NCBI GenBank assembly: GCA_027592745.1
Contig: JAQCLG010000012.1
Location: 1 to 44,919 of the forward strand
Source: Pseudomonadota bacterium
GTDB taxonomy: Bacteria; Pseudomonadota; Alphaproteobacteria; SP197
DNA length: 44,919 nt
Direction: 5' to 3'
Shown here: positions 61-14,755 of the stretch, one piece after another
Layout of the letters: each line of letters starts with the position of its first letter
Numbering within the stretch: the stretch's first letter is position 1
Program-made: the position numbers and the translations under genes
Notes under the pieces: generated by a model
What the model saw: the letters and a program-made list of their open reading frames with translations, nothing else
The model's database searches: none
What the model was told of the DNA's origin: nothing

Positions 61-70
61 GCTCTAGCCT
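61..70 (+). promoter_or_regulatory. Candidate -10 motif GCTCTAGCCT
   Basis: GCTCTAGCCT ends 26 bases before the ATG at 97. Nearly the same decamer stands 24-31 bases before three other genes (5096, 24580 minus strand, 35960). TAGSCT keeps the T-A-N-N-N-T pattern of a -10 hexamer, but no convincing -35 box is visible, so the role is inferred. Confidence 0.3.
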
Positions 71-96
71 TCGCGCTCCCGGGGCAGGAGACGATC

Positions 97-884
97 ATGA
101 CACTGGCGACCTTCGCGGCCGACGCGCCGCTGGCGGGGTGCTCGAGGCGATGCGCAGCGACGGTGCCGTGATCCTCACCGGCATGCTGCCCCCCGAAACC
201 ATGGCGCAGGTGGCGTCCGAGATGCGCGAGCGGTTCGACACCATGGGGCGGCGCTCCGAGAGCGATTTCAACGGCTACAGGACGCTGCGCATCGGCGGCG
301 TGCTGGGTTATGCCCCGACCACGGCGCAGCTCATCGGCCATGCCCGCGTGCTCGAGATCGCCGATGCCATCCTGCTGCCCTTCTGCCAGAACTACCGCAT
401 CGGCAGCACCACGGGCATCGAGATCCTGCCCGGCGAGGCCGACCAGGTGCTGCACCGCGACGACACGATCTATCCGCTCCACAGCCTGCCCGGCCTGGAA
501 ACCCAGATCGGCGTCATGTGGTCGTTCTGCGACTTCACGGAGCAGAACGGCGCCACGCGGGTGATCCCGGGCAGCCAGCGCCACAGCGATCCCTGGCCGC
601 CCGACGAGGCCGGCCTCGTGCAGGCCGTGATGCCGGCGGGATCGGCGCTCTTCTACCTCGGCTCGGTCTGGCACGGCGGCGGCGCCAACCGCAGCGAGGC
701 CCCGCGGATGGGCTTCATCAACACCTATTCCCTGGGCTGGCTGCGCCAGGAGACCAACCAGTACCTGGCGGTGCCGCCCGAGATCGCCGCGCAGTACCCG
801 CCGCGCATCCGCCGCCTGATCGGCTACGCCCGCCACAGCCCCATCCTGGGCTTCGGGCGCGCCGACGGCGTCTGGGTTGAATGA
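97..884 (+). CDS. Phytanoyl-CoA dioxygenase (PhyH) family protein, probable 1-base frameshift near the start
   Basis: Non-haem Fe(II)/2-oxoglutarate oxygenase of the PhyH family, expected to hydroxylate a small organic or CoA-linked substrate in the cytoplasm. The facial-triad motif HRDD and the distal histidine in SVWHGGG, followed by an Arg suited to binding 2-oxoglutarate, are visible. The core resembles the second PhyH gene at 17220-18131 (shared [28 protein letters not shown]). The start is the odd part. An ATG at 97 with an upstream CAGGAG opens a plausible N-terminus ([14 protein letters not shown]), but this lies in another frame from the conserved body. One extra G in the GGGG run at 135-138 would join it to [11 protein letters not shown]. 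Without that repair the first in-frame ATG is 150, giving a protein lacking about 18 residues. Substrate unknown. Confidence 0.8.
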
Positions 885-888
885 CGAC

Positions 889-1626
889 TCAGCTCTCGGG
901 CAGGGAGATCACCACCGTGCCGCGCGATTTCTGCGAGCTGGGATCGTCGTGCATCATGGCCGCCAGCATGCCGGCCAGCGGCACCCACTTGGGCGGGTAC
1001 TTGTAACGGGCGACGTCGAGGATCAGCACGCTGTCGGTGGCGGCATCCTAGGCGCCGATGGGCGAGATGTGGCCGGTGCCGATCTCGCCGAACTCCTGGC
1101 GGTCGTAGTTGACGATCAGGCGCTTGGCGGGGTCGGCCAGCGTCGCCTTGACGATCTCGCGGAAGCTGTCCTCGCTGAGGTCGCTGGCGAAGTGGACCTC
1201 CGGCGCCATGCCGACGTTCTCGATGAACTGGCCCAGTTCGGCCAGCGTCAGGCCGACCGACATGACCTCGCCGAAGATCTTGGGCTTCTGCCCGGCGGCC
1301 TCAAACAGCTCGTCCTCGGTCCACAGGTGGTAGGGCGCCCAGCGGGTCGACTCCGGCGCGGGCAGCCCCAGCGAGTTGGCGACGATGGTCACGGTCGCCG
1401 GACCGCAGAAGGTCACGACCTCCTCGGACACCATATAGGTGACCAGCGGCACGTAGTCGCCCTTCAGGTCGGCGCCGAACAGGCGCTGGGTGCCTTCGTC
1501 CGTGGTGACGAAGACCAGCGGCCAGGCGCCTTCCTCGGCCGCGGCGGGTCGCGGCGCGGCGGCAAGCAGGGCGATCAGGCAGGCGGCAAGGACCGGCTGG
1601 AGCATGGATGAGGGTGCTCGGGACAT
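889..1626 (-). pseudogene. Phytochelatin synthase-like secreted protein, interrupted by in-frame TAG
   Basis: Papain-like Cys protease family of phytochelatin synthases, which act on glutathione (gamma-Glu-Cys transfer or removal of Gly). The start at 1626 is preceded by GAGGAA and begins a signal peptide (hydrophobic residues about 9-30, ending PAAAEE), so export to the periplasm is likely. The catalytic triad is readable: Cys74 in TFCGPATV, His186 in GHISPIG, and Asp204 in LILDVARYKYPP; the 18-residue His-Asp spacing equals that of known family members. Codon 193 is TAG (1048-1050), at a position where homologues usually carry Tyr, and the frame then continues cleanly for 52 codons to a TGA at 889. 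Termination at the TAG would remove the catalytic Asp and kill the enzyme. It lies 139 bases downstream of the alpha/beta hydrolase gene on the same strand. Confidence 0.8.
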
Positions 1627-1765
1627 GGCGGCATTCCTCGTGGCTGCGGGCTGAGGTCGGTGCCGTGCGCCGTCTCCGGCGCCCCCCGGCACGGGCCCCA
1701 TCGTTCGCGCCTGCAACCGGGAGTCAAGGCGGGCGGTCCGGCGGTTCGCCCGCCACGATGCGCCC

Positions 1766-2557
1766 TCAGGGATGGTCGAGCCCGGCGACGAAGGCGGCCA
1801 TGGCCCTGCCGATCTCCTCGGCATGGGGCCGGAAGTTGTGCGTCATCTCGGGCAGGTCGCAGGCCCTGGCCCCCGGAATCGCCGCGGTCATGGCGCGGAA
1901 CTTCTCCAGGGCGATGTATTCGTCGCGGTGGGCCTCCAGCACCAGCACCGGCCGGTTGATCGCGCCCATCATCTGCGCCGAGATGTTGGGCGTCGTCGCC
2001 CAGGCGCGTTCCAGCGCGGCACCCAGGCGCGCCAGCTTCTCGGCCGGCATGCCCAGGCCCAGCAGGATCTTCGAAAGCCCCATGGGGTCCTCCCGGCCTT
2101 CTGCGATCAGGCGCGGCAGTTCCCGGGTCATGGCATCGGCCGCGGCGTCGTAGCTGTCGCGGTTGCACGGCGTGCCCGAGAGCGTCGCGCTGAGCACCCG
2201 GTGGGGATAGTCGGACAGCAGGTGCAGCGCCGCGCAGCCACCGTCGCTGTGGCCGAAGACGTGCATCGCCCCGTACTCCAGCGCGTTCATGAAGCCGACC
2301 GCGTCGGCGGCCTCGCGGGCATAGGTCACCGGCCCCTCGCCGAAACCCGACTTGCCGTGGCCGCGCGCATCGATCGCGTGGACGCGGAAGTGGCGGCCGA
2401 AGGCATCGAGTGCCACGTCGATGCTGCTGGTCATGCCGAAGCCGCCGTTGAGCAGCAGCAGGGGCGGGCCCTGGCCGACGACCTCGTAGTACATGTCGAA
2501 GTCGTCGATACGCACGAAGGCGCCGTTGCGGTCGGTGCGCGGATCGGTCCAGGCCAT
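1766..2557 (-). CDS. Alpha/beta-fold hydrolase
   Basis: A 263-residue cytoplasmic alpha/beta hydrolase of the esterase/epoxide-hydrolase superfamily. The oxyanion-hole region LLLLNGGFG, the strand IDARGHGKS, the nucleophile elbow GHSDGG (Ser) and a late His in MTHNFRP are visible; an Asp in EAHRDEY is the likely acid. Start at ATG 2557 (MAWTDPR) with GAGAA upstream; a much longer open frame exists but its extension is antisense to the enoyl-CoA hydratase gene and is not used. It is divergent from the hydratase gene at 2666 with about 108 bases between them, which must hold both promoters. The substrate cannot be told from sequence. Confidence 0.88.
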   Translation of the reverse strand: MAWTDPRTDRNGAFVRIDDFDMYYEVVGQGPPLLLLNGGFGMTSSIDVALDAFGRHFRVHAIDARGHGKSGFGEGPVTYAREAADAVGFMNALEYGAMHVFGHSDGGCAALHLLSDYPHRVLSATLSGTPCNRDSYDAAADAMTRELPRLIAEGREDPMGLSKILLGLGMPAEKLARLGAALERAWATTPNISAQMMGAINRPVLVLEAHRDEYIALEKFRAMTAAIPGARACDLPEMTHNFRPHAEEIGRAMAAFVAGLDHP

Positions 2558-2665
2558 GGTCGTGTTCTCGCCGGTGCTGTTGCGCGCGACAGTGAACCCG
2601 CCCGGGAGGGCGATGCCAAGAGCGCCCGATTCGGCTAAACAGGGAACAGACAAGGGGAGCCCGTC

Positions 2666-3442
2666 ATGACCGATTCCGTCCGCCTGGTGCGCCGCGGCGC
2701 CTGCCTGGAAATCACGCTGGATCGGCCCAAGGCCAACGCCATCGATGCACCGACCAGCCGCAGCCTCGCGGCGGCCTTCGACACCTTCCAGGCCGATCCC
2801 GACCTGCGCGTGGCGATCCTCACCGGCGGCGGCGAGCGCATCTTTTCGGCCGGCTGGGACCTCTCGACCAGCGGCAGCGACGACGAGGACTGGGGCAGCG
2901 GCGGCTGGGGCGGCATCTGCCGACGTCTCGACCTGGAAAAACCCGTGATCGCCGCGGTCAACGGCGCCTGCGCGGCCGGCGGCTTCGAGATCGCGCTCGC
3001 CTGCGACCTGATCGTGGCGGCCGACCACGCCCGTTTCTTTCTCTCCGAAGCCACCCTGGGCCTCACCGTCGATGTCGGCACGATCCCGCGCCTCTTCCAG
3101 CGCGTGCCCCATCCGGTTGCCGTGGAGATGCTCTACACCGGCAGGCGTCTGGATGCGCAGGAGGCGCTGGCCATGGGACTGGCTGCCCAGGTCGTGCCGA
3201 TGGCCGGCCTGATGCCGGCGGCGCGCGCCCTGGCCGATCGCATCTGCGCCTCCGCGCCGCTCTCGGTCGCCGCGATGAAGCAGATGATCACCATCGCGTC
3301 GTCGCTGCCGGTGGGTGAGACCTATGCCGCGCTCGATGCCGGCCGTTTCACCGCCCAGCAGCGCGCCCACGGCAGCGAGGACGCGCTGGAAGGCCCGCGC
3401 GCCTACATGGAAAAGCGCGATCCCGTGTGGAAGGGGCGTTAG
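2666..3442 (+). CDS. Enoyl-CoA hydratase/isomerase family protein (CaiD-like)
   Basis: Crotonase-fold protein of 258 residues, the usual family length. The oxyanion-hole segments are seen: FSAGWDLS (about residues 69-76) and [16 protein letters not shown] (about 98-113), followed by SEATLGL. The FSAGWDL version of the first motif is typical of carnitinyl-CoA dehydratase-like members, so hydration of an enoyl- or crotonobetainyl-type CoA thioester is a reasonable guess, not a proof. The ATG is preceded by AAGGGGAG. It ends in TAG, and this stop overlaps the TAA of the convergent monooxygenase gene by two bases (3440-3441). A CaiB-like CoA-transferase occurs elsewhere in the window (19900). Confidence 0.9.
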
Positions 3443-4455
3443 GCCGAAGCGGCGGCCTCCCGGCCATCCGTCACGATCATCTGTTCTGCTACGATCTCGA
3501 AGCTCCTGAGGCGTGCCTCGTGGTCGTGGATGTGGGTCGTCACCATCAGCTCGTCGGCACCGGTCCGCGCGATGAAGGCTTCCAGGCCGGCCTTCACCGT
3601 TCCGGGCGCGCCGTGGACGGAGCAGGACAGCGTCTCCTCGAGCATGTGGCGTTTGGCGCGACCCAGGCTCTCCTCGTAACCCTCGACCGGCGGCGGCAGC
3701 TTGCCCGGCCGGCCGCTACGCAGGTTGACGAAGGACTGCAGCACCGAGGTCCGCAGGAAGGCGGCCTTCTCGTCGCTTTCGGCGGCAACGACGTTGACGC
3801 CCAGCATGACATGGGGATGGCCGAGCTGTTCGGAGGGTTCGAAGCGTTCCCGGTAGATCGCGATCGCCTGCATCATCGCGGCCGGCGCGAAGTGGGAGGC
3901 AAAGGCATAGGGCAGGCCCAGCGCCGCGGCGAGCTGGGCGCCGTAGAGGCTGGAACCCAGGATCCACAGCGGCACGTCCTGGCCCTCGCCGGGCACGGCG
4001 CGGATCGCCTGGCCGGGTTCGGCCGGGCGGAAGTAGTGCTGCAGCTCCAGCACGTCGCGCGGGAAGGCATCGACATCGCCGGTCAGGGTGCGGCGCAGGG
4101 CGTGCGCGGTGTGCTGGTCGGTGCCCGGCGCGCGGCCCAGGCCGAGTTCGATGCGGCCGGGATAAAGCGCGTTGAGCGTGCCGAACTGCTCGGCGATCAC
4201 CAGCGGGGCGTGGTTGGGCAGCATGACGCCGCCGGCGCCGACCTTGATGGTCTGCGTGCCGCCGGCGACATGGCCGATCACCACCGCGGTCGCCGCGCTG
4301 GCGATGCCCTGCATGTTGTGGTGCTCGGCCAGCCAGTAGCGGTTGAATCCGAGCGCCTCGGCACGCCGGGCGAGCTCGAGCGTTCTTCTGAGGGCGAGCG
4401 TGGCATCGCCGCCCTCGGTGATGGGACACAGGTCCAGAACCGAGATGGGAATCAT
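3439..4455 (-). CDS. Luciferase-like (LLM class) flavin-dependent monooxygenase
   Basis: A 338-residue protein of the bacterial luciferase-like superfamily, single-subunit MsnO8-like group, using reduced flavin and O2. Recognisable segments are the N-terminal [18 protein letters not shown] (about residues 39-47), [26 protein letters not shown] and WILGSS. Start ATG 4455 was chosen because SVLD sits at the very N-terminus in the family. A TATATC sequence ends only about seven bases before this ATG, so the transcript may be leaderless or very short-leadered. Convergent with the hydratase gene; transcribed away from the EF-hand gene at 4541. The substrate is unknown. Confidence 0.9.
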
Positions 4456-4540
4456 GGAACCTGATATAGGGGCGCCCGCACCGTCCCGCCAGCGATGAAC
4501 GCGCCGCAATTCCACCGCAAACCGGCCCAAGGATGACGAC

Positions 4541-5056
4541 ATGCGCAAATGGTTGTTCGCTCTTGCCCTGATTCTGCCCGGCGCCGCCACGGCGACGGCC
4601 CAGACCGCCTCGCCCGATGCCCTGCTGGTGCAGCAGTTGATCGACGGCGCGCGCGAACCCTGCAGGACCCAGCCGGCCCAGGTCTGCGTCGACATCGGCT
4701 TCTGGTTTGCCGCCTCCGATCCAGACCGCGGTCTCTCGCTCGACGATGTCGTGCTGCTGCGCCAGCGCCTGGGTGCGTGGTTCCAGGCCTATCAGGAAAC
4801 GCTGGTGCCCCGGGCGCGCACCGGCTTCGGCCTAGGTTTCCTGCTGGCCGACGGCATGACCATACCGAAGCTGCACGGCAGCTTCGACAGCAACGGCGAC
4901 GGCTACGTCAGCCAGGCCGAACTGCTGGCCGACGTTACCCTCGACCAGCGTCCCCTGGGCCAGGTGCTCTCGGATCCCGATGCCGTCGACCGGGTCGGGC
5001 TGGCCAACCGCCTGGGCCTGCCGCCCGCCATGCTCGATCAGCTTTTCCAGAAATAG
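4541..5056 (+). CDS. Secreted EF-hand domain protein, function unknown
   Basis: A 171-residue protein with a clear signal peptide ([21 protein letters not shown]), so periplasmic or secreted. Residues 116-127 form a canonical 12-residue EF-hand calcium loop ([12 protein letters not shown]). An earlier [10 protein letters not shown] stretch may be a degenerate second loop. Two Cys residues (in EPCRTQ and QVCVD) could form a disulphide. The ATG follows AAGGATGACGAC. It is followed after 73 bases by the Rieske oxygenase gene on the same strand, but that gap contains its own candidate promoter motif. No enzyme domain is recognised. Confidence 0.8.
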
Positions 5057-5095
5057 GCGCCGGGCCACAAACCTGTCGCCAGCACACCTGCATCC

Positions 5096-5105
5096 GCTCT
5101 AGCCT
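5096..5105 (+). promoter_or_regulatory. Candidate -10 motif GCTCTAGCCT
   Basis: Same decamer as at 61-70, here ending 24 bases before the Rieske oxygenase ATG and lying in the 73-base gap behind the EF-hand gene. No clear -35 hexamer is seen. Confidence 0.3.
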
Positions 5106-5129
5106 CCGCTGCTTGACGGAGACGGCGCG

Positions 5130-6425
5130 ATGACGAAGGCACAGGGAGAACAGACGGTCGAGGCGCTGGCGGCACGCCATCGCCGGGGCTTCACGCTGGA
5201 GCAGCCGTTCTACAACGATCCCGCCATCTTCGCCCGCGACCTCGAGCAGATCGTCTCCAGGCAGTGGCTGCTGGTCGACCACGCCAGCCGCCTCGGCAAG
5301 GCCGGCGACTGGGTGACCTTCGCGGTCGCCGGCGAATCCATCGTCCTGGTGCGGGGCAGGGACGGGGAGATCCGCGGCTTCTTCAACGTCTGCCGCCACC
5401 GCGGCAGCCGCATCTGCCTGACCGAAGAGGGCAACAGCCGGACGCTGACCTGCCCCTATCACGCCTGGGTCTGGAACCTGGAGGGGCAGCTCCAGCTTGC
5501 CCGCGGCATGGCCGCCGACTTCGACAGGGACGCCTGGCCGCTGCATGCCTGCCAGGTGCGGGTCTGGCACGGCCTGATCTTCGTCAACCTGGCGGCCGAG
5601 GGCGATCCCGAGGTGCTGCCCTTCGAGACGCTGGCGGCCGATTGCGAACCCTACCTCGCGCGCGAGGACCTTGGCCGCACCAGGATCGCCGCGCGCATCG
5701 CCTATCCCACCCATGCCAACTGGAAGCTCGTGCTCGAGAACTTCCAGGAATGCCACCACTGCGCGCCCTCGCATCCCGAGTACACGGCGGTCCATTCTTA
5801 CGTCACCGAGGAGCCGCGCGACCCCGCCGGCTGGTGGGAGCGGCACCAGTCTTGGCAGGGGGCACGCCGCGCCGCCGGCCTCCATGCCGAGATTGCCGCT
5901 CCCTACGACGCCGACCCGCGCCAGCCCCACGGCGGCTGGTACGCGCCGATCCGGCCGGGCATCGACACGCTCTCCAGGGACGGCAAGCCGCTTGCCCCGC
6001 TGCTTGGCAGCCACACCGCCTTCGACGGCGTCGACACCGGCATCTGCCTTGGCCAGTTCGGCTTTGCCCATGTGTGCAACGACCACGCCGTGCTCTTCCG
6101 CTTCACGCCGCGCCGCGTCGACCTCACCGATGTCGAGCTGATCTGGCTGGTCCACGAGGATGCCGTCGAGGGTCGCGACTACGACCGCGACCGCCTCACC
6201 TGGCTGTGGGACATCACCACGATCGAGGACACGAAGATCATCAACGACAACCAGGCAGGCGTGAACTCCAGCCGCTACGCCCCCGGCCCCTACGTCCCGG
6301 CCGAAGCCTACGCCCAGGCCTTCATCGACTGGTACGTCGACCGCATCGGCGGCCAGCCTCCCCAGGCGCGCGCCGCCACGCCCCCCGCCCGCGACTTCCG
6401 CGGCAACGTCGTCGCTGCGGAGTAG
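5130..6425 (+). CDS. Rieske non-haem iron oxygenase, alpha subunit (aromatic-ring hydroxylase/GbcA-like)
   Basis: A 431-residue large subunit of a Rieske oxygenase. The Rieske [2Fe-2S] ligands appear as CRHRGSR and CPYHAW (about residues 88-113), and the mononuclear iron site as NFQECHHCAPSHPEY (about 205-219: bridging acidic residue region plus two His). This pattern, with Glu near the bridging position, is shared with the group that includes glycine betaine, stachydrine and carnitine monooxygenases, so a quaternary-amine substrate is plausible; an aromatic acid is also possible. ATG 5130 has GGAG upstream. No ferredoxin reductase partner is present in the window, so electrons must come from a protein encoded elsewhere. 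Confidence 0.88.
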   Translation: MTKAQGEQTVEALAARHRRGFTLEQPFYNDPAIFARDLEQIVSRQWLLVDHASRLGKAGDWVTFAVAGESIVLVRGRDGEIRGFFNVCRHRGSRICLTEEGNSRTLTCPYHAWVWNLEGQLQLARGMAADFDRDAWPLHACQVRVWHGLIFVNLAAEGDPEVLPFETLAADCEPYLAREDLGRTRIAARIAYPTHANWKLVLENFQECHHCAPSHPEYTAVHSYVTEEPRDPAGWWERHQSWQGARRAAGLHAEIAAPYDADPRQPHGGWYAPIRPGIDTLSRDGKPLAPLLGSHTAFDGVDTGICLGQFGFAHVCNDHAVLFRFTPRRVDLTDVELIWLVHEDAVEGRDYDRDRLTWLWDITTIEDTKIINDNQAGVNSSRYAPGPYVPAEAYAQAFIDWYVDRIGGQPPQARAATPPARDFRGNVVAAE

Positions 6426-6431
6426 GGCAGC

Positions 6432-7886
6432 CTACCGCGCGACGCCGAACATGTTGCTTTCGGACTTCACGAAGAGGTTGAGCAGGGCGTCCTCGACGTT
6501 CTCGACCGTTTACTGCGGCGGCGTGCCCTCGAACTTGCAGGAGGCCAGCACCTGCTCGACGATGAACTTGGGCTGGAAGTAGGCAAGCTGGGCATCGTTG
6601 GCCTTGATCGTGTCCATCACCTGGTCGAACACCGCGTCGGTCAGCTCCATGCCGGCCTTCTTCGACATGCCCTCGAAGACCTTGCGGAAGAGGTCCTCGG
6701 GCGGCTCCACGGCCTCCAGCTTGTAGGCGATGCGGTGCTGGAAGGCCGGGTCCATCAGGTCGTTGGGGTGCAGGTTGGTCGAGAAGATGACGAACTCGTC
6801 GAAGGGGATCTGCACCGTCTTGCCGGTGTGGAAGGTGAGGTAGTCGACCCGGCTGTTGAGCGGCACGATCCAGCGGTTGAGGATTTCCTCGGGCTTGACC
6901 CGCTGGCGCCCGAAGTTGTCGATCAGGAAGGTGCCGTTGAGCGCCTTGATGTGCAGCGGCGCCTCGTAGAACTTGGCCAGCGCGTTGAACTTCAGGTCGA
7001 GCATTTCCATGGTCAGCTCGCCGCCGGTGATGACCAGCGGCCGGAAGCAGGGCACCCAGCGCTTGTCGAAACGCTCGCGCCGCAGGCCGCGGGCGCCGCC
7101 GCCGGTCACCTCCGGCACCTGCTTGTGCAGGGTGGGATCGAAGACCTTGACGATCTGGCCCTCGGCGACAAAGCAGTGGGGAACGTAGACCACGGTCTCG
7201 AAGATCTGGCCGATGATCTCGGCGATGGTCGTCTTGCCGTTGCCCGCCGGGCCGTAGATCAGCATGGCGGTGCCCGAGTTGATTGCCGGCCCCAGCCGCG
7301 TCAGCAGGCGGTCGGGCATGACGATGTGGGCAAAGGCCTTCTGCATCTGCTCGCGGTTGACCAGTTCGCCGCCGATGCGCTGGTGGCGGATGCGTGCGCA
7401 GAAGGCCTCGAAGGAGACCGGGGCGGGGCCGAAGTACTGGCTCTGGTTCATCGCCTCGATCGCTTAGTCGCGGCCCAGCTTGGTCAGGCCGCAGCGGGTT
7501 TCCTGGACCGCGCCGACGCCGGTGTCGATGGCACCCAGGCCCTCGATCAGCTTGCGTTCGGTGGCGTCCGTGATGAGCACGGCCATGACGTTGGCTGGCA
7601 GGCACATCGCATCGCCCATCTGCGACTGCAGCTCCAGGTTCTCCGAATACATGCCCTTCATCATGAGCTGGAGCAGCGCCAGGCCGTCGATGCCGGTGTC
7701 GGCGATGGTGTTGGGTGCGGCGGGAATGTCGGCCACCGCTTCTGCCGCGACCTCGGCGCTGAGCATGCCCAGCGCCACCAGCACATCGGCCAGGCGGCCG
7801 CCGTTCTCGCGCTGGTGTTCGCCGGCCCGCTGGATGTCCTCCAGGCTGACCAGCCTGCGCGCCACCAGAATGTCGGAAAGATTCAT
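6432..7886 (-). pseudogene. AAA+ ATPase with GspE-N-like domain, interrupted by two in-frame TAA codons
   Basis: Read through, this is one 484-codon frame. Residues 1-60 (MNLSDILVARRLVS, GRLADVLVALGML) resemble the small N-terminal domain of GspE/PilB-type ATPases. An AAA+ module follows, with Walker A GPAGNGKTT at about 212-220, a Walker B-like FLIDNFGRQ, sensor-1 IFSTNLHP and an arginine-finger region AFQHRI. Walker B has Asp-Asn where Asp-Glu is usual. TAA codons occur at codon 141 (7464-7466), between the two domains, and at codon 459 (6510-6512), near the C-terminus; both are in frame with the TAG at 6432. Translation could restart at MNQSQYF (7451). The biological role is unknown. The gene is divergent from the MFS gene. 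Confidence 0.75.
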
Positions 7887-7929
7887 CGCCTGCGCCCCCG
7901 TATGACGGAATCCTGAAATCCCGGGGCCG

Positions 7930-7935
7930 ATTGTA
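7930..7935 (-). promoter_or_regulatory. Candidate -10 box TACAAT for the AAA ATPase gene
   Basis: On the minus strand TACAAT lies 44 bases before the ATG at 7886. The -35 region at the right distance is poor, so this is only a candidate. Confidence 0.3.
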
Positions 7936-8047
7936 GAGAGAAGCCGGTGCCGGCATCACCCCGTGACAGGACCCCGCCGGCATGCCATGGAAGCCCGGCC
8001 CGCCGCGCCGTTGGAGCCCTGCGGCAGACGGGGGCGCCCTGGCGATC

Positions 8048-9241
8048 ATGAATCCGGTCTTCCACTCCTGGGCGTTCCGCCGCCTCTGGTTCAGCGTCGC
8101 GTTCAGCGCCGCCAGCGCCTCGGCCGATTTCGTGCTGGTCGGCTGGCTGACGCTGCAGGCTGCCGGCAGCCCGGCCTGGGTCGGCGTTGCCTTTGCCCTC
8201 TACTACGTGCCCATGCTGGTGCTGGGTGTGCCGGCCGGCAGCCTGGCCGACCGCTACGACCGCTACCGCCTGATCCGCGGACTGGAGCTGGCAGGCGCCG
8301 CGATCCTGCTCGCCTTCGCCCTGGTCTTTGTCCTGGTCCAGCCGGGACTGGTCCTGGCCCTCGTGCTGCCGCTGGTCCTGGGCAGCCTGCGCGCGGTGCA
8401 GAGCACGGTGCGCCTGAGTTTTGCCTATGACCTGGTCGGACCCGACAACCTGACGCCGGCGCTGGCCGGCACCAGCGTGGGCACGCGGCTGGGCATGATC
8501 GCCGGTGCCCTGGTCGCCGGTGCGGTGGCGCAGCATTACGGGGCGGCGCCGGCCTTCCTGCTGATGGCGGCCTCCCACGGCGCGGCCTGGGCGGTCCTGG
8601 GCGGCGGCCTGCAGACCGCCTCGATCCAGAAGCCCGATACCACGCCGTTGCTGCGCAACCTGCGCGACAGCGCCGCCGAGGTCGCCCGCAACAGGCTGCT
8701 GCTCACCCTGATCGTGGTCACCGCCGTGGTCGAGGTCTTCGGCGTTTCCTTCCTCACCCTGGTGCCCAGCCTGGCGCAGGACCGCCTGGCGCTTGGCGCC
8801 CAGGGCATGGGCTGGATGCAGGCGGTGCAGTCGGCCGGCGGCCTGCTTGCCGGGCTGGTGATGTTCGCCCTGCCGCCGCTGCGCCGCAACGCCGCGGCCT
8901 ATGCCGCCTCGATCCTGTGCCTGGGGCTTGCCGTCATGGCCCTGGGTGTCGCTGCGGGCCTGGCGGCCCATCTCATCGTGCTGGCGACGATCTCGGCGGC
9001 CATCGCGGTCTGGGACATCCTGACCCAGAGCATGATGCAGCGCAGCGTGCCCGACCACCTGCGCGGCCGCGCCATGGGCGCCTGGGTCTTTGCCATCGGT
9101 TCGGCGCCGCTCGGCCACCTGCAGATCGGCCTGCTGGCCGCCAGCCTGGGGTCCGCCCAGGCGCTGGTCATCAACGGCGCCTGCGTCGTCGGCGTCATTG
9201 CCGTGGCCATGCTGGTCTCGCGCGCGCTGCGCCGGTTGTAG
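8048..9241 (+). CDS. MFS transporter
   Basis: A 397-residue major facilitator superfamily protein of the inner membrane with about 12 hydrophobic segments. The loop-2 signature appears as GSLADRYDRYR after the second segment, and TSVGTRLGMIAGALVAGAVA marks a typical helix 5 region. It resembles the enterobactin-exporter-like (EntS/MFS_3) group, which suggests drug or small-molecule efflux. The ATG at 8048 (MNPVFHSW) was preferred to one at 7982 because the extra 22 residues are Pro/Arg-rich and unlike the family. The gene is divergent from the AAA ATPase and ends about 107 bases before the tRNA. Confidence 0.88.
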   Translation: MNPVFHSWAFRRLWFSVAFSAASASADFVLVGWLTLQAAGSPAWVGVAFALYYVPMLVLGVPAGSLADRYDRYRLIRGLELAGAAILLAFALVFVLVQPGLVLALVLPLVLGSLRAVQSTVRLSFAYDLVGPDNLTPALAGTSVGTRLGMIAGALVAGAVAQHYGAAPAFLLMAASHGAAWAVLGGGLQTASIQKPDTTPLLRNLRDSAAEVARNRLLLTLIVVTAVVEVFGVSFLTLVPSLAQDRLALGAQGMGWMQAVQSAGGLLAGLVMFALPPLRRNAAAYAASILCLGLAVMALGVAAGLAAHLIVLATISAAIAVWDILTQSMMQRSVPDHLRGRAMGAWVFAIGSAPLGHLQIGLLAASLGSAQALVINGACVVGVIAVAMLVSRALRRL

Positions 9242-9347
9242 GACCACGCCGGCGCTTGCCTGGTCCGGCACCCCAGGAGGCGGTCCCTGCGGACCGCTTC
9301 CCCCGCCCCTTGCCCCATCTGGGCGCGCGCCCTAAACAGAAGTGCGT

Positions 9348-9424
9348 GGGCCTGTAGCTCAACTGGTTAGAGCCGGCCGCTCATAACGGTCTGGTTGCAG
9401 GTTCGAGTCCTGCCGGGCCCACCA
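9348..9424 (+). tRNA. tRNA with CAT anticodon, probably tRNA-Ile2 (lysidine-modified)
   Basis: A 77-base cloverleaf with encoded CCA end. The acceptor stem is GGGCCTG/CGGGCCC, the anticodon loop CTCATAA, the T-arm GCAGGTTCGAGTCCTGC. Anticodon CAT could mean elongator Met or Ile2. The C4-G69 and C5-G68 pairs are the acceptor features that the lysidine synthetase TilS uses to recognise tRNA-Ile2, so Ile2 is favoured. It is not an initiator tRNA, since the first pair is matched and the GGG/CCC anticodon-stem signature is absent. Confidence 0.92.
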
Positions 9425-9616
9425 CTCGTTCCGCGCCTTCCGCGGTCTCTCCGGGGGCGTTACAGAATGTCGGGACATTTCCGAGGCTTGGGCGGCATGT
9501 TGACGTCATGTGTTGGTCGATAGACGCCCGAGGAGCGCGAAAGTCGCCCGCTCGGCTCGTAGCGTCTCCGTTCGCGATTTTGGTGACCAAAAGTTTGCCC
9601 AGGACAGCGCCGCCGC
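9425..9616. other. Gap between tRNA and recombinase remnant
   Basis: About 190 bases with no supported gene. The open frame crossing it on the minus strand runs into the antisense of the tRNA and is considered an artefact. Confidence 0.5.
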
Positions 9617-10846
9617 TCATGCGCTGACGGCAGTAAACCCCAGCAGGTGGCGTTGCTCTGTCCATGCCATTGGCAGGGGCAGGGATTGCTTCAATCGGTT
9701 GGCGGTGAGTTCGGGTGGTTGGCTGCCTTCAACGACTGCGGCCGCGATGTCCGGTGCGATGAACGCCAGCGAGATCAGGCGGCTGACGTCGCCGGCATCG
9801 ACCTTCTCACGCTGGGCGATATCGTTGACCGATTGGGCTGTTCCTCTGGCCAGACGATCGAACCAGTCATGGCCACGTGCGACGATCTCGATGAGCTTCT
9901 GGTCCGGTCCCGACTGTAGTTCGTCGTCTCCGCGGACGATCAACTTGCCCTCGACCCCGTGCCGCCGCAACGCGAAGGGCACAACGATCTCGAATGATCC
10001 CTGGAGGTGCTCGTCGCTGTTGATGGCCAGCTGCGTGGCGATGGCGTTTCTCACCAACTGTATGCGTAGTCGACCGGGTGACAGGTCGATCCTCTCGATG
10101 ATCGCCAGCAGGAGATTTCGGCGATGACCCATGCCCATGGTGCTGATCTCTGTCGCGATCTTTTCTCCGCGGGACAAGATGGCATTGATGCTGCCGGGAG
10201 CCATCGAGGCGACGCCGAGTTCGCGTATCAGCCGGGCCCGGTCTTGGAGCAGGCTGATCACAGCGCCGACGGCGGCTGCTTCAAGCTGCGGTGCGGGAAG
10301 GCGTTAGCCGTCGTTTTCCTGACGGATTCCGGTCATGAGGCGGTGAGAGATGTAGTAGCGGTAGCGACGTCCGGCCTTGGTTGCATGCCCTGGTGAGAGA
10401 CGATCACCCGTCTCGTCAAAGACGATGCCCGTCAGAAGGCTCTCTCCATGTCCTCGAACACGGCTCTCACCCACGTGACGTCTACCGGCAAGAAGATCCT
10501 GAACGGCATCCCAGGTCGGCCGGTCAACGATTGCTGCGTGTTGCCCTTCGTAGATGGCGCCACGATGACGCACCAGGCCCAGGTAGAGCGGGTTGGCGAG
10601 CAGGCGATAAAGGTGTCCGCGTGAGAACGGCCCGCCGCCGGTCGTGCGCCCATGTGGGCCAGCCCTCAACTTCGTCCTGAGGCCCAAACCAGTCGCACGG
10701 GCCTTAACTTCACGCACGCTGACCAGATCAAGATAGAGCCGATACAGGGTACTAACGGTCTCTGCCTCGGATTCGTTGACGACGAGTTTTCGGTCGCGGA
10801 CGTCGTAGCCAAGCGGCGGCAGGCCGCCCATCCACATGCCGTTTTT
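9617..10846 (-). pseudogene. Serine site-specific recombinase remnant (N-terminus missing, in-frame TAA)
   Basis: The frame encodes the recombinase domain and C-terminal half of a large serine recombinase: GMWMGGLPPLGYDV at its start, LYRLLANPLYLGLVRHRG (the recombinase-domain hallmark), then a strand-rich segment ending RYRYYISHR. The resolvase catalytic domain with the active Ser is absent; homology stops at KNGM, where AT-rich DNA begins and a TAA blocks the frame. A further TAA at 10304-10306 interrupts the sequence just before RLPAPQLEA, where relatives are continuous (often Trp). The remainder (LLQDRARLIRE... to a TGA at 9617) is in the same frame. It cannot catalyse recombination; it marks an old integration next to the tRNA. 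Confidence 0.85.
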
Positions 10847-10992
10847 TTACAATTACTTACACAAGCAACCAAATTACTGCTATACATCTGCTATTACAGA
10901 TATTCATCGCTTGACTGCTCGGCTCTTTATTTCAAAAATTACACATCAATAGCTCACGCAAGCAATCAGCATCCCGCTAATAAAATGCTGCT
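10847..10992. other. AT-rich gap between recombinase remnant and lipoprotein gene
   Basis: About 150 bases of AT-rich sequence with no gene. A short hairpin (CAGCAT, 12-base loop, ATGCTG) around 10968-10990 lies just behind the lipoprotein stop and might act in termination, but it has no good T-run. Confidence 0.4.
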
Positions 10993-11664
10993 TTACTTCC
11001 TCAAGTAGTTTCCAAAATACTTTTCAACAAAATATGCTGTTTGGGCTTCATCTTGCGAAAGTGTTCCACGCCTATTGCTCGTCCCACTGTATTGAACACC
11101 AAGCGCATTGCCTTGCAATACAATGTGCTGGTCTCCTTCAATCTGCCCATTTTGGCAAACAAAGTAAAAAGCTTTAGCTCCTATTCTCTCATCACCTCTG
11201 TGTATATCCCAACAAGTTTCTACCCCACCATTCCAGTAATCCCATTTTCTGCAGTACTGATTGTTATCAAAACTTACTGTTCCAACGTTCCAATCTGGCT
11301 TTCCAAGTGAAGTTTTTTTCGGCATCCAGCCAACAGTATTTTGCGCACCCTCATAATATATTGCAAACACACCATCCAAATCACCGGACAAGATCGTGTT
11401 ATTGGTTAACAACTCTTTAATCTCACTCGAGTTTAATTTAGAATCCGCAGAAGGCGCAAAAAACACATTTGGCTCTGTTGCGCAAATTGTATTAGCTCTA
11501 CCCGCAAAGGCTTCACTTTCTTTCGTAGTTAATTGATTGGCGGGCAATAAATCTGCTGCATTTGGCTCCGTCAATTTTGGATAGTCTGGCGCATACGTCG
11601 TGCCAGTATTGCAACCCAGCAACACCCCAGCCAAAGTAAAAACCATAACAAATTTGAAATTCAT
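10993..11664 (-). CDS. AT-rich foreign lipoprotein, possibly DUF995-like
   Basis: A 223-residue protein with a lipoprotein signal (MNFKFVMVFTLAGVLLGC; lipobox LLGC, Cys18), so membrane-anchored at the cell envelope. The C-terminal part contains YCRKWDYWNGGVETCWD, a Cys/Trp pattern like that in the uncharacterised DUF995 family; further Cys residues (TICATE, FVCQNG) suggest disulphides. Function unknown. AAAGGATGC precedes the ATG. Codon use is wholly unlike its neighbours (AT-rich codons, TAA stop), which shows recent horizontal acquisition or an assembly join. The gene looks intact. It is the only gene in the AT-rich insert. Confidence 0.8.
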   Translation of the reverse strand: MNFKFVMVFTLAGVLLGCNTGTTYAPDYPKLTEPNAADLLPANQLTTKESEAFAGRANTICATEPNVFFAPSADSKLNSSEIKELLTNNTILSGDLDGVFAIYYEGAQNTVGWMPKKTSLGKPDWNVGTVSFDNNQYCRKWDYWNGGVETCWDIHRGDERIGAKAFYFVCQNGQIEGDQHIVLQGNALGVQYSGTSNRRGTLSQDEAQTAYFVEKYFGNYLRK

Positions 11665-11868
11665 TTAAGCATCCTTTTTTTTCATTTCACACCAGCATCA
11701 CTATGCCAGTCTGCCCCTTGCGCTACTGCACCCTCGCTACCATACAAATCGCCACATTTCACGCCAAAAACGCACACACAGCGCCCTCGCAGCGTGTAGC
11801 ATCCAACAGCAGCAAACTGCCCTCACCCCCACTGTACGCTTGCTACACACGCTGTGCGCAACCACTCC
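11665..11868. other. Gap upstream of the AT-rich lipoprotein gene
   Basis: About 200 bases that grade from AT-rich next to the lipoprotein start to mixed composition at the IS6 remnant. It should contain the lipoprotein promoter on the minus strand, but no convincing -35/-10 pair was found. Confidence 0.4.
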
Positions 11869-12252
11869 CTGGTTCAGACCGGGCGCAACGCCAAGGCCGC
11901 CAAGCGGCTCATGAAGAAGCTGCCCAAGAAGCAGGGCTTTGCGCCCACTCGAATCGTGACCGACCGGCTCCGATCCTATCCTGCCGCGTTCCGCGCCATC
12001 GGCCTCACCGCTCATCATGACCGTGGCCTTCGCGCCAACAATCGAGCCGAGAACTCACACCTTCCGATCCGACGACGAGAACGAAAGCAACAGGGCTTCA
12101 AATCAGCCGGCTCAGCCCAGCGTTTTCTCTCCGTTCACGCCGCAACCCACAACACCTTCTATCACCAGCGCCACCTCACAAGCCGAGCCAACTACAAACA
12201 CCTTCGAGCTGGTTCGTTCGACGCGTGGGCGACGGCCTCAGCCGCCGCCTGA
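11869..12252 (+). pseudogene. IS6-family transposase, C-terminal remnant
   Basis: Matches the C-terminal half of IS6-family DDE transposases: LVQTGRNAKAAKRLMKKL, then FAPTRIVTDRLRSYPAA (second catalytic Asp) and GLRANNRAENSH (catalytic Glu), ending FRAG-like RAGSFDAWATASAAA. The N-terminal helix-turn-helix and first catalytic Asp are missing; family-like sequence begins abruptly at LVQT. An ATG at 11854 opens the frame but the residues before LVQT are not family-like. It cannot transpose by itself. The truncation point coincides with the end of the AT-rich segment. Confidence 0.88.
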
Positions 12253-12524
12253 TCCCACGCCTGCGCAAAAATCGCTCGGCCGACACGCCTTAAGCTGACG
12301 ACACCCCGCCGCCTGATCGCCCTGGAACCCGAGGACCCCGCGCTCGGCGATCTGCTGCGCCAACTCGGCGGCTGACTGCGGATGCGCGAGGAATGACCTC
12401 CAAAGCGCACCGTTCGCCGTTAAATCTGCTGAAATGGTGAAGAAATGGCGGGAAACCTGCCATGCCTCGGCGTGGCGTGATGTTCCGCCGCGAAAGTAAA
12501 TCTGCGATCCTGCCCGCGATGCGA
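12253..12524. other. Gap between IS6 remnant and groESL promoter region
   Basis: About 270 bases. The first part is probably IS6 flank. A short plus-strand frame ending at 12374 (ALEPEDPALGDLLRQLGG then TGA) looks gene-like in composition and may be the tail of a deleted native gene, but it is too short to identify. Nothing else is supported. Confidence 0.4.
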
Positions 12525-12626: not shown

Positions 12627-12932
12627 ATGGCCTTCAGGCCCTTGCACGACCGTGTTGTCGTGCGCCGCATCGATGGCCAGGAGAAGACGGCGGGCGGGAT
12701 CATCATTCCCGATACCGCCAAGGAAAAGCCCATGGAGGGCAAGATCATCGCCGTGGGCCCCGGCGGGCGCGACGAAAACGGCAAGCTGATGCCGCTCGAC
12801 GTCAAGGCCGGCGACAGCGTGCTGTTCGGCAAGTGGTCGGGCACCGAGGTGAAGATCGACGGCGAGGACCTTCTGATCATGAAGGAAGCCGACATCATGG
12901 GCGTCATCGAGGCGACCAAGAAAAAGAAGTGA
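12627..12932 (+). CDS. groES: Co-chaperonin GroES
   Basis: A 101-residue GroES, the lid of the GroEL folding chamber in the cytoplasm. [14 protein letters not shown] at the N-terminus, the mobile loop [17 protein letters not shown] (about residues 19-35) and [10 protein letters not shown] are family hallmarks. Start ATG 12627 follows AAGGAGAACACC; an open frame reaching further upstream covers the CIRCE site and is not used. groEL follows after 59 bases with its own GGAGATAATCGACC ribosome site. The pair is controlled by the CIRCE element and perhaps by RpoH. Confidence 0.98.
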
Positions 12933-12985
12933 GCAGCGCGAACGCTTTCCGTTCGCCTCACGCCACGACGACCCACAGGAGATAA

Positions 12986-14618
<1,633 letters not shown>

Positions 14619-14620
<2 letters not shown>

Positions 14621-14680
14621 AGCAAATCATCCTTCTGCGGAATCGCTTCGCGATTGCGCAGAAGGATGTGAATTTGCTCT
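14619..14680. repeat. Long palindrome 1 (AGAGC...GCTCT), possible groESL terminator
   Basis: A 62-base imperfect palindrome starting inside the groEL stop codon. The arms AGAGCAAAT and CATCCTTCTGCG pair with GCGCAGAAGGATG and ATTTGCTCT; the inner stem AATCG/CGATT closes a small CTTCG loop. A TCA trinucleotide on the right arm is unpaired. Ends and bulge match palindrome 2, which suggests a repeat family. There is no T-run. Confidence 0.85.
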
Positions 14681-14693
14681 ATCCTGTTGATGT

Positions 14694-14755
14694 AGAGCGG
14701 ATTCACACGATTGGTCGGAACCGCCGAGCGGTTCCGACCAATCGTGATCCGCTCT
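14694..14755. repeat. Long palindrome 2 (AGAGC...GCTCT)
   Basis: A second 62-base palindrome, 13 bases after the first. AGAGCGGAT and CACGATTGGTCGGAACCGC pair with their complements; a TCA trinucleotide on the left arm is unpaired. It shares its length, its AGAGC/GCTCT ends and its bulge with palindrome 1, but the bulge is on the other arm and the stem sequence differs. Confidence 0.85.

Follow-up and report, generated by a model that had tools for sequence, protein, structure and literature searches.

A foreign-composition lipoprotein gene between two truncated mobile-element genes in an alphaproteobacterium is probably a remnant of horizontal transfer

We found that a 44,919-nucleotide stretch of DNA (the window, which is the whole of contig C67) carries an AT-rich insert of foreign composition between a recombinase gene and an IS6-family transposase gene, each of which has lost its N-terminal part. 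The insert holds an intact lipoprotein gene. We estimate at about 60% the probability that the insert is natural and represents what is left of horizontally acquired DNA in the variable, mobile-element-rich stretch between a tRNA-Met gene and the groESL operon. The contig belongs to a 3.85-Mb draft assembly in 263 contigs, with an estimated completeness of 99% and an estimated contamination of 2.2%, and the GC content of the window is 68%, one stretch excepted. The features of this region are listed in Table 1.

Table 1. Features between the left and right conserved arms of the window
Feature	Position	Strand	Evidence and remarks
tRNA-Met (CAT)	9348..9424	+	ARAGORN; last conserved feature of the left arm
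Large serine recombinase remnant	9617..10846	-	Pfam Recombinase 2.5e-12; tblastn; N-terminal catalytic half absent, internal TAA near 10306
AT-rich foreign block, about 40% GC	10847..11704		Composition change-point fit, segment GC
Intact lipoprotein gene, 223 aa, divergent DUF995-like core YCRKWDYWNGGVETCW	10993..11664	-	ORF; weak alphaproteobacterial homologues
58% GC stretch 5′ of the lipoprotein gene, without gene assignment	11705..11867		Segment GC (11701-11863), fold
IS6-family element, right part	11868..12305	+	NCBIfam IS6 3.3e-20, tblastn, comparison with fuller copies in G009/G012/G013
CIRCE-like operator of groESL, CTGGCACTC-N9-GAGTGCTAA	12554..12580	+	Sequence inspection; earliest feature on the intact right arm
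groES-groEL	12628..14620	+	groES start codon, Cpn60 (Pfam), blastn to G001

Composition of the insert

A two-changepoint fit placed the low-GC block at 10842-11704, with 11685-11770 as the range of the right edge within 2 log-units, and forcing that edge to 11868 incurred a penalty of 9.7 log-units. The sharp drop at 10846 given in the original prediction was therefore supported, while its recovery near 11865 was not, because the low-GC block already ends at 11704 and the final ~165 bp preceding the IS6 remnant have about 58% GC. When ~0.9 Mb of the same genome (about 80 contigs) was surveyed, none of the 8,550 other 800-bp windows was as AT-rich (minimum GC 0.4925 vs 0.411 for the insert). 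Another low-GC ORF was observed at L063 (G000:C22, 11684-12100), which is AlbA/Schlafen-like by eye and runs off the contig end.

The 58% GC stretch carries an imperfect inverted repeat with arms at ~11789-11801 and ~11840-11854, where a hairpin is possible (fold z -2.6), and no RNA family was identified within the insert by Rfam. For the hairpin at 11789-11854 we weighed an integron cassette (attC) and dropped it, as inspection by eye showed no RYYYAAC/GTTRRRY ends. Given that the origin of this stretch is not assigned, the insert may consist of more than one piece.

The lipoprotein gene

The claim that the sole cargo is an intact lipoprotein gene with foreign codon use was borne out, as the GC content at codon positions 1/2/3 was 0.45/0.42/0.38 in the lipoprotein ORF vs 0.68/0.39/0.92 in groEL, and a foreign origin of the gene is supported. 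Inspection of the ORF identified the lipobox LLGC at residues 15-18, with MNFKFVMVFTLAGVLLGC-N read in the ORF, by which the product is classed as a bacterial lipoprotein. An Asn residue after the lipobox cysteine directs lipoproteins to the outer membrane by an established sorting rule, and the sequence suggests an outer-membrane lipoprotein. Single-sequence structure prediction gave a mean pLDDT of 33.9, which is too low to use.

Searches for relatives of the gene returned little. Blastn with the insert DNA gave no match, no close relative of the lipoprotein was identified in two scans of bacterial and archaeal genomes, in viral contigs, or by tblastn in plasmids and phages, and comparison with Pfam, NCBIfam, PDB and PHROGs gave nothing usable and no Pfam or NCBIfam family. 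However weak, one match in another alphaproteobacterium allowed a two-sequence profile, which detected proteins in additional genomes of the class (at best 1.7e-10 per genome), and the elements EIxxLLxGNT, YCRxWxxWxxGxxxCW and GNxIG were common to the lipoprotein and these homologues. L041, one of two weak matches from the phylum search, was dismissed, since its similarity lies outside the conserved core and seems to be due to chance. One weak homologue scored DUF995 at an E value of 0.069, below the cut-off, and the lipoprotein itself gave no score over the Pfam DUF995 cut-off. Judging from the protein sequences and the IS6 matches, the class appears to be Alphaproteobacteria, and the weak homologues look like small exported proteins. 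The lipoprotein thus belongs, as a highly divergent representative, to a loose family of small secreted proteins; this family is not foreign to the class, though the window copy has foreign composition.

The two truncated mobile genes

We then compared both edges of the insert with known mobile genes. On the left, tblastn homology covered residues 166-358 of the L011 serine recombinase and ended at 10846, with a TAA immediately after it, and blastn matches to relatives likewise ended at 10841-10846. The recombinase has thus lost its N-terminus exactly at the edge, as predicted, and its reading frame is additionally interrupted by an in-frame TAA, so that it is a pseudogene regardless of the truncation, which fits island decay. 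The Recombinase domain is present and the N-terminal resolvase domain absent, and the remnant is accordingly not counted as a full large serine recombinase. The missing half gave no match elsewhere in the assembly.

On the right, tblastn homology covered residues 105-231 of the 231-residue transposase, starting at 11869, and blastn matches in plasmid IS6 copies began at 11868/11869, in agreement with the predicted loss of the transposase N-terminus exactly at the other edge. In relatives the blastn matches began at 11864, and the extra bases before 11868 are probably a few chance bases. Membership of the IS6 family was indicated by Pfam DDE_Tnp_IS240 (1.1e-16, over the cut-off) and by the right terminal inverted repeat at 12286-12305 (GGTGTCGTCAGCTTAAGGCG on the minus strand); the NCBIfam IS6 score is below the NCBIfam cut-off, as expected for a truncated copy. 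Compared with the fuller copies in the related genomes, the element lacks ~365 bp on its left side, and with them one flank of any 8-bp target-site duplication, and the junction lies at transposase residue 105. Neither another IS6 copy nor the N-terminal half of the transposase was found in the assembly, although draft assemblies can lose repeats. The remnant shows no decay, with a dN/dS of about 0.1, i.e. purifying selection, and one change at the 48 sites that are invariant across seven reference copies, and the truncation is therefore either recent or artefactual.

Directly after the right end of the IS6 element we observed a short reading frame at 12306-12374 (+), RRLIALEPEDPALGDLLRQLGG followed by a stop, which is perhaps the C-terminus of a gene formerly interrupted by the IS. 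A 13-bp exact repeat, CCGCCGCCTGATC, is present at 12242 and 12306.

Surroundings in relatives

The left arm of the window (64-9276) is collinear with contig C151 of G001, the sole sibling species compared, with 88% identity over 9.2 kb, and the tRNA-Met with its 5′ flank was found in contig C22 of G001. Beyond the collinear left arm, G001 has PepSY-like and hydrolase genes (translations read by eye), and two parts, seemingly of one hydrolase, lie at the ends of its contigs C151 and C22. The right arm matches G001 groESL from 12542 onwards at 89% identity (blastn). Judged by these alignments, both flanking arms belong to the lineage of the window genome. No relative examined confirmed the adjacency of the two arms, and none carried the insert junctions.

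Reading the translations by eye, we found that the tRNA-Met is followed on its 3′ side by nucleotide-sugar genes in G001, by genes for a ROK-type kinase and a GntR-type regulator in G009, and by an oxidoreductase gene in G015, while 5′ of groESL G001 has unrelated TPR-like and TIR-like genes (also by eye) that are absent from the window genome. As the genes after tRNA-Met and before groESL differ in relatives, the tRNA-Met–groESL stretch is variable. The DNA downstream of the tRNA-Met (window 9348-9430) was different in each of these three relatives, as for an insertion hotspot.

Two further observations concern the groESL side. A second groESL operon is located at G000:C15 (L029, 4624-6699), with 86% identity to the window operon. 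Moreover, an intergenic dispersed repeat of ~84 bp lies directly 3′ of the groEL stop (window 14619-14702, minus strand); about 30 copies occur elsewhere in the genome (e.g. G000:C225:11063-11146), with ~80% identity among copies, and the repeat was found in the sibling species too. It is possibly a REP- or MITE-like family.

Origin of the insert

In the favoured reading, foreign AT-rich DNA with a small gene for an outer-membrane-type lipoprotein would have entered the tRNA-Met–groESL stretch, either carried by an island whose recombinase adjoins the tRNA or inserted separately without homology. The recombinase would then have lost its N-terminal half, and the IS6 element its left part, through deletions or end-joining at non-homologous points. 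We infer the order of these events, the source of the DNA and the export of the protein, and likewise that the lipoprotein was carried along and did not itself bring about the rearrangement. A natural remnant is supported by the matches of both arms to G001, by the variable DNA after tRNA-Met and by the internal stop of the recombinase. It is further supported by the presence of other low-GC accessory DNA in the genome, such as the ORF at the end of its contig C22, and by the missing recombinase and transposase halves being nowhere else in the assembly, while a simple mis-join of intact loci tends to leave them.

An assembly chimera is the principal competitor, which we regard as possible but rather unlikely. 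Here, a fragment from an AT-rich organism in the same sample would have been joined at two mobile-gene sequences, and the real genome would be without the lipoprotein gene at this site. The undecayed IS6 remnant, the absence of the junctions from the relatives and the 263-contig draft weigh against a natural remnant and for a chimera. A chimera is also favoured by the estimated contamination, an insert composition unmatched in the surveyed DNA, and a synteny with the sibling that breaks exactly in the insert interval. The original prediction would have been refuted by the same arrangement being found widely with uniform composition; instead, the insert and its encoded protein occurred in 0 of the 60 relatives searched, which again suits a chimera. 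However, a chimera requires two independent false joins about 1 kb apart. Graph assemblers join only via shared k-mers, and neither insert edge shows homology running on into the insert, leaving no shared sequence at either edge for such joining. The recombinase is a pseudogene anyway, and no other contig holds the missing halves, though short contigs have possibly been dropped from the record.

Capture of the lipoprotein gene beside the IS by an IS6-type (IS26-like) replicative rearrangement, as originally proposed, is very unlikely. An IS6-family element with its right terminal repeat does adjoin the insert, and members of this family are known to capture genes and to delete adjacent DNA (PMC7986276, PMC9602291). 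However, joining by IS6-family transposition takes place at the ends of the element, and a complete IS stays behind at the joint of an adjacent deletion (PMC7986276, PMC9602291). The junction here falls instead within the transposase gene, ~365 bp short of the left end, which is lost, and the left insert edge is without an IS end. The second IS6 copy with matching ends that was expected elsewhere in the genome is not in the assembly. An internal cut in the IS and the lack of a further copy in the assembly mean that the junction was not made by IS6 activity.

It is highly improbable that an unrecognised mobile unit brought in the entire insert, with its hairpin-bearing 58% GC stretch and a structured downstream region, as a small single-gene cassette whose selected cargo was the lipoprotein. 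The least probable account is a one-step capture of a foreign fragment by Ku/LigD end joining at a chromosome break, which would be expected to leave an insertion without homology and with flanking DNA lost on either side, but which is unlikely because no Ku homologue was found in the genome, 99% complete by estimate.

Comparison with known systems

Overall, the insert is probably real and an ordinary remnant of horizontal transfer. If the junctions are real, it is another case of single-gene foreign DNA retained in a chromosome through non-homologous events amid the debris of mobile elements, its cargo being an orphan lipoprotein. If they are not, it illustrates that abrupt composition shifts at truncated mobile genes in drafts need read-level support. 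Either outcome leaves current understanding unchanged.

Like an IS26/IS6 pseudo-compound transposon or adjacent deletion, the insert has an IS6-family element directly beside its cargo; unlike them, it has one IS copy, which is internally truncated, and its junction is not at an IS end. The lipoprotein has a core similar to that of the DUF995 (PF06191) small secreted proteins, NT..G ... G.W ... YCR.W ... CW/CF, but it has no Pfam match, its lipoprotein N-terminus is longer and its C-terminus bears an additional tail. No repeat of at least 12 bases of the tRNA-Met 3′ end, the direct repeat of tRNA islands, was found in the contig. Although its recombinase is serine-type and truncated and its cargo is a single gene, the insert resembles a decayed genomic island at a tRNA-proximal hotspot, in that it lies by a tRNA, carries recombinase and IS remnants together with cargo of foreign composition, and is variable among relatives.
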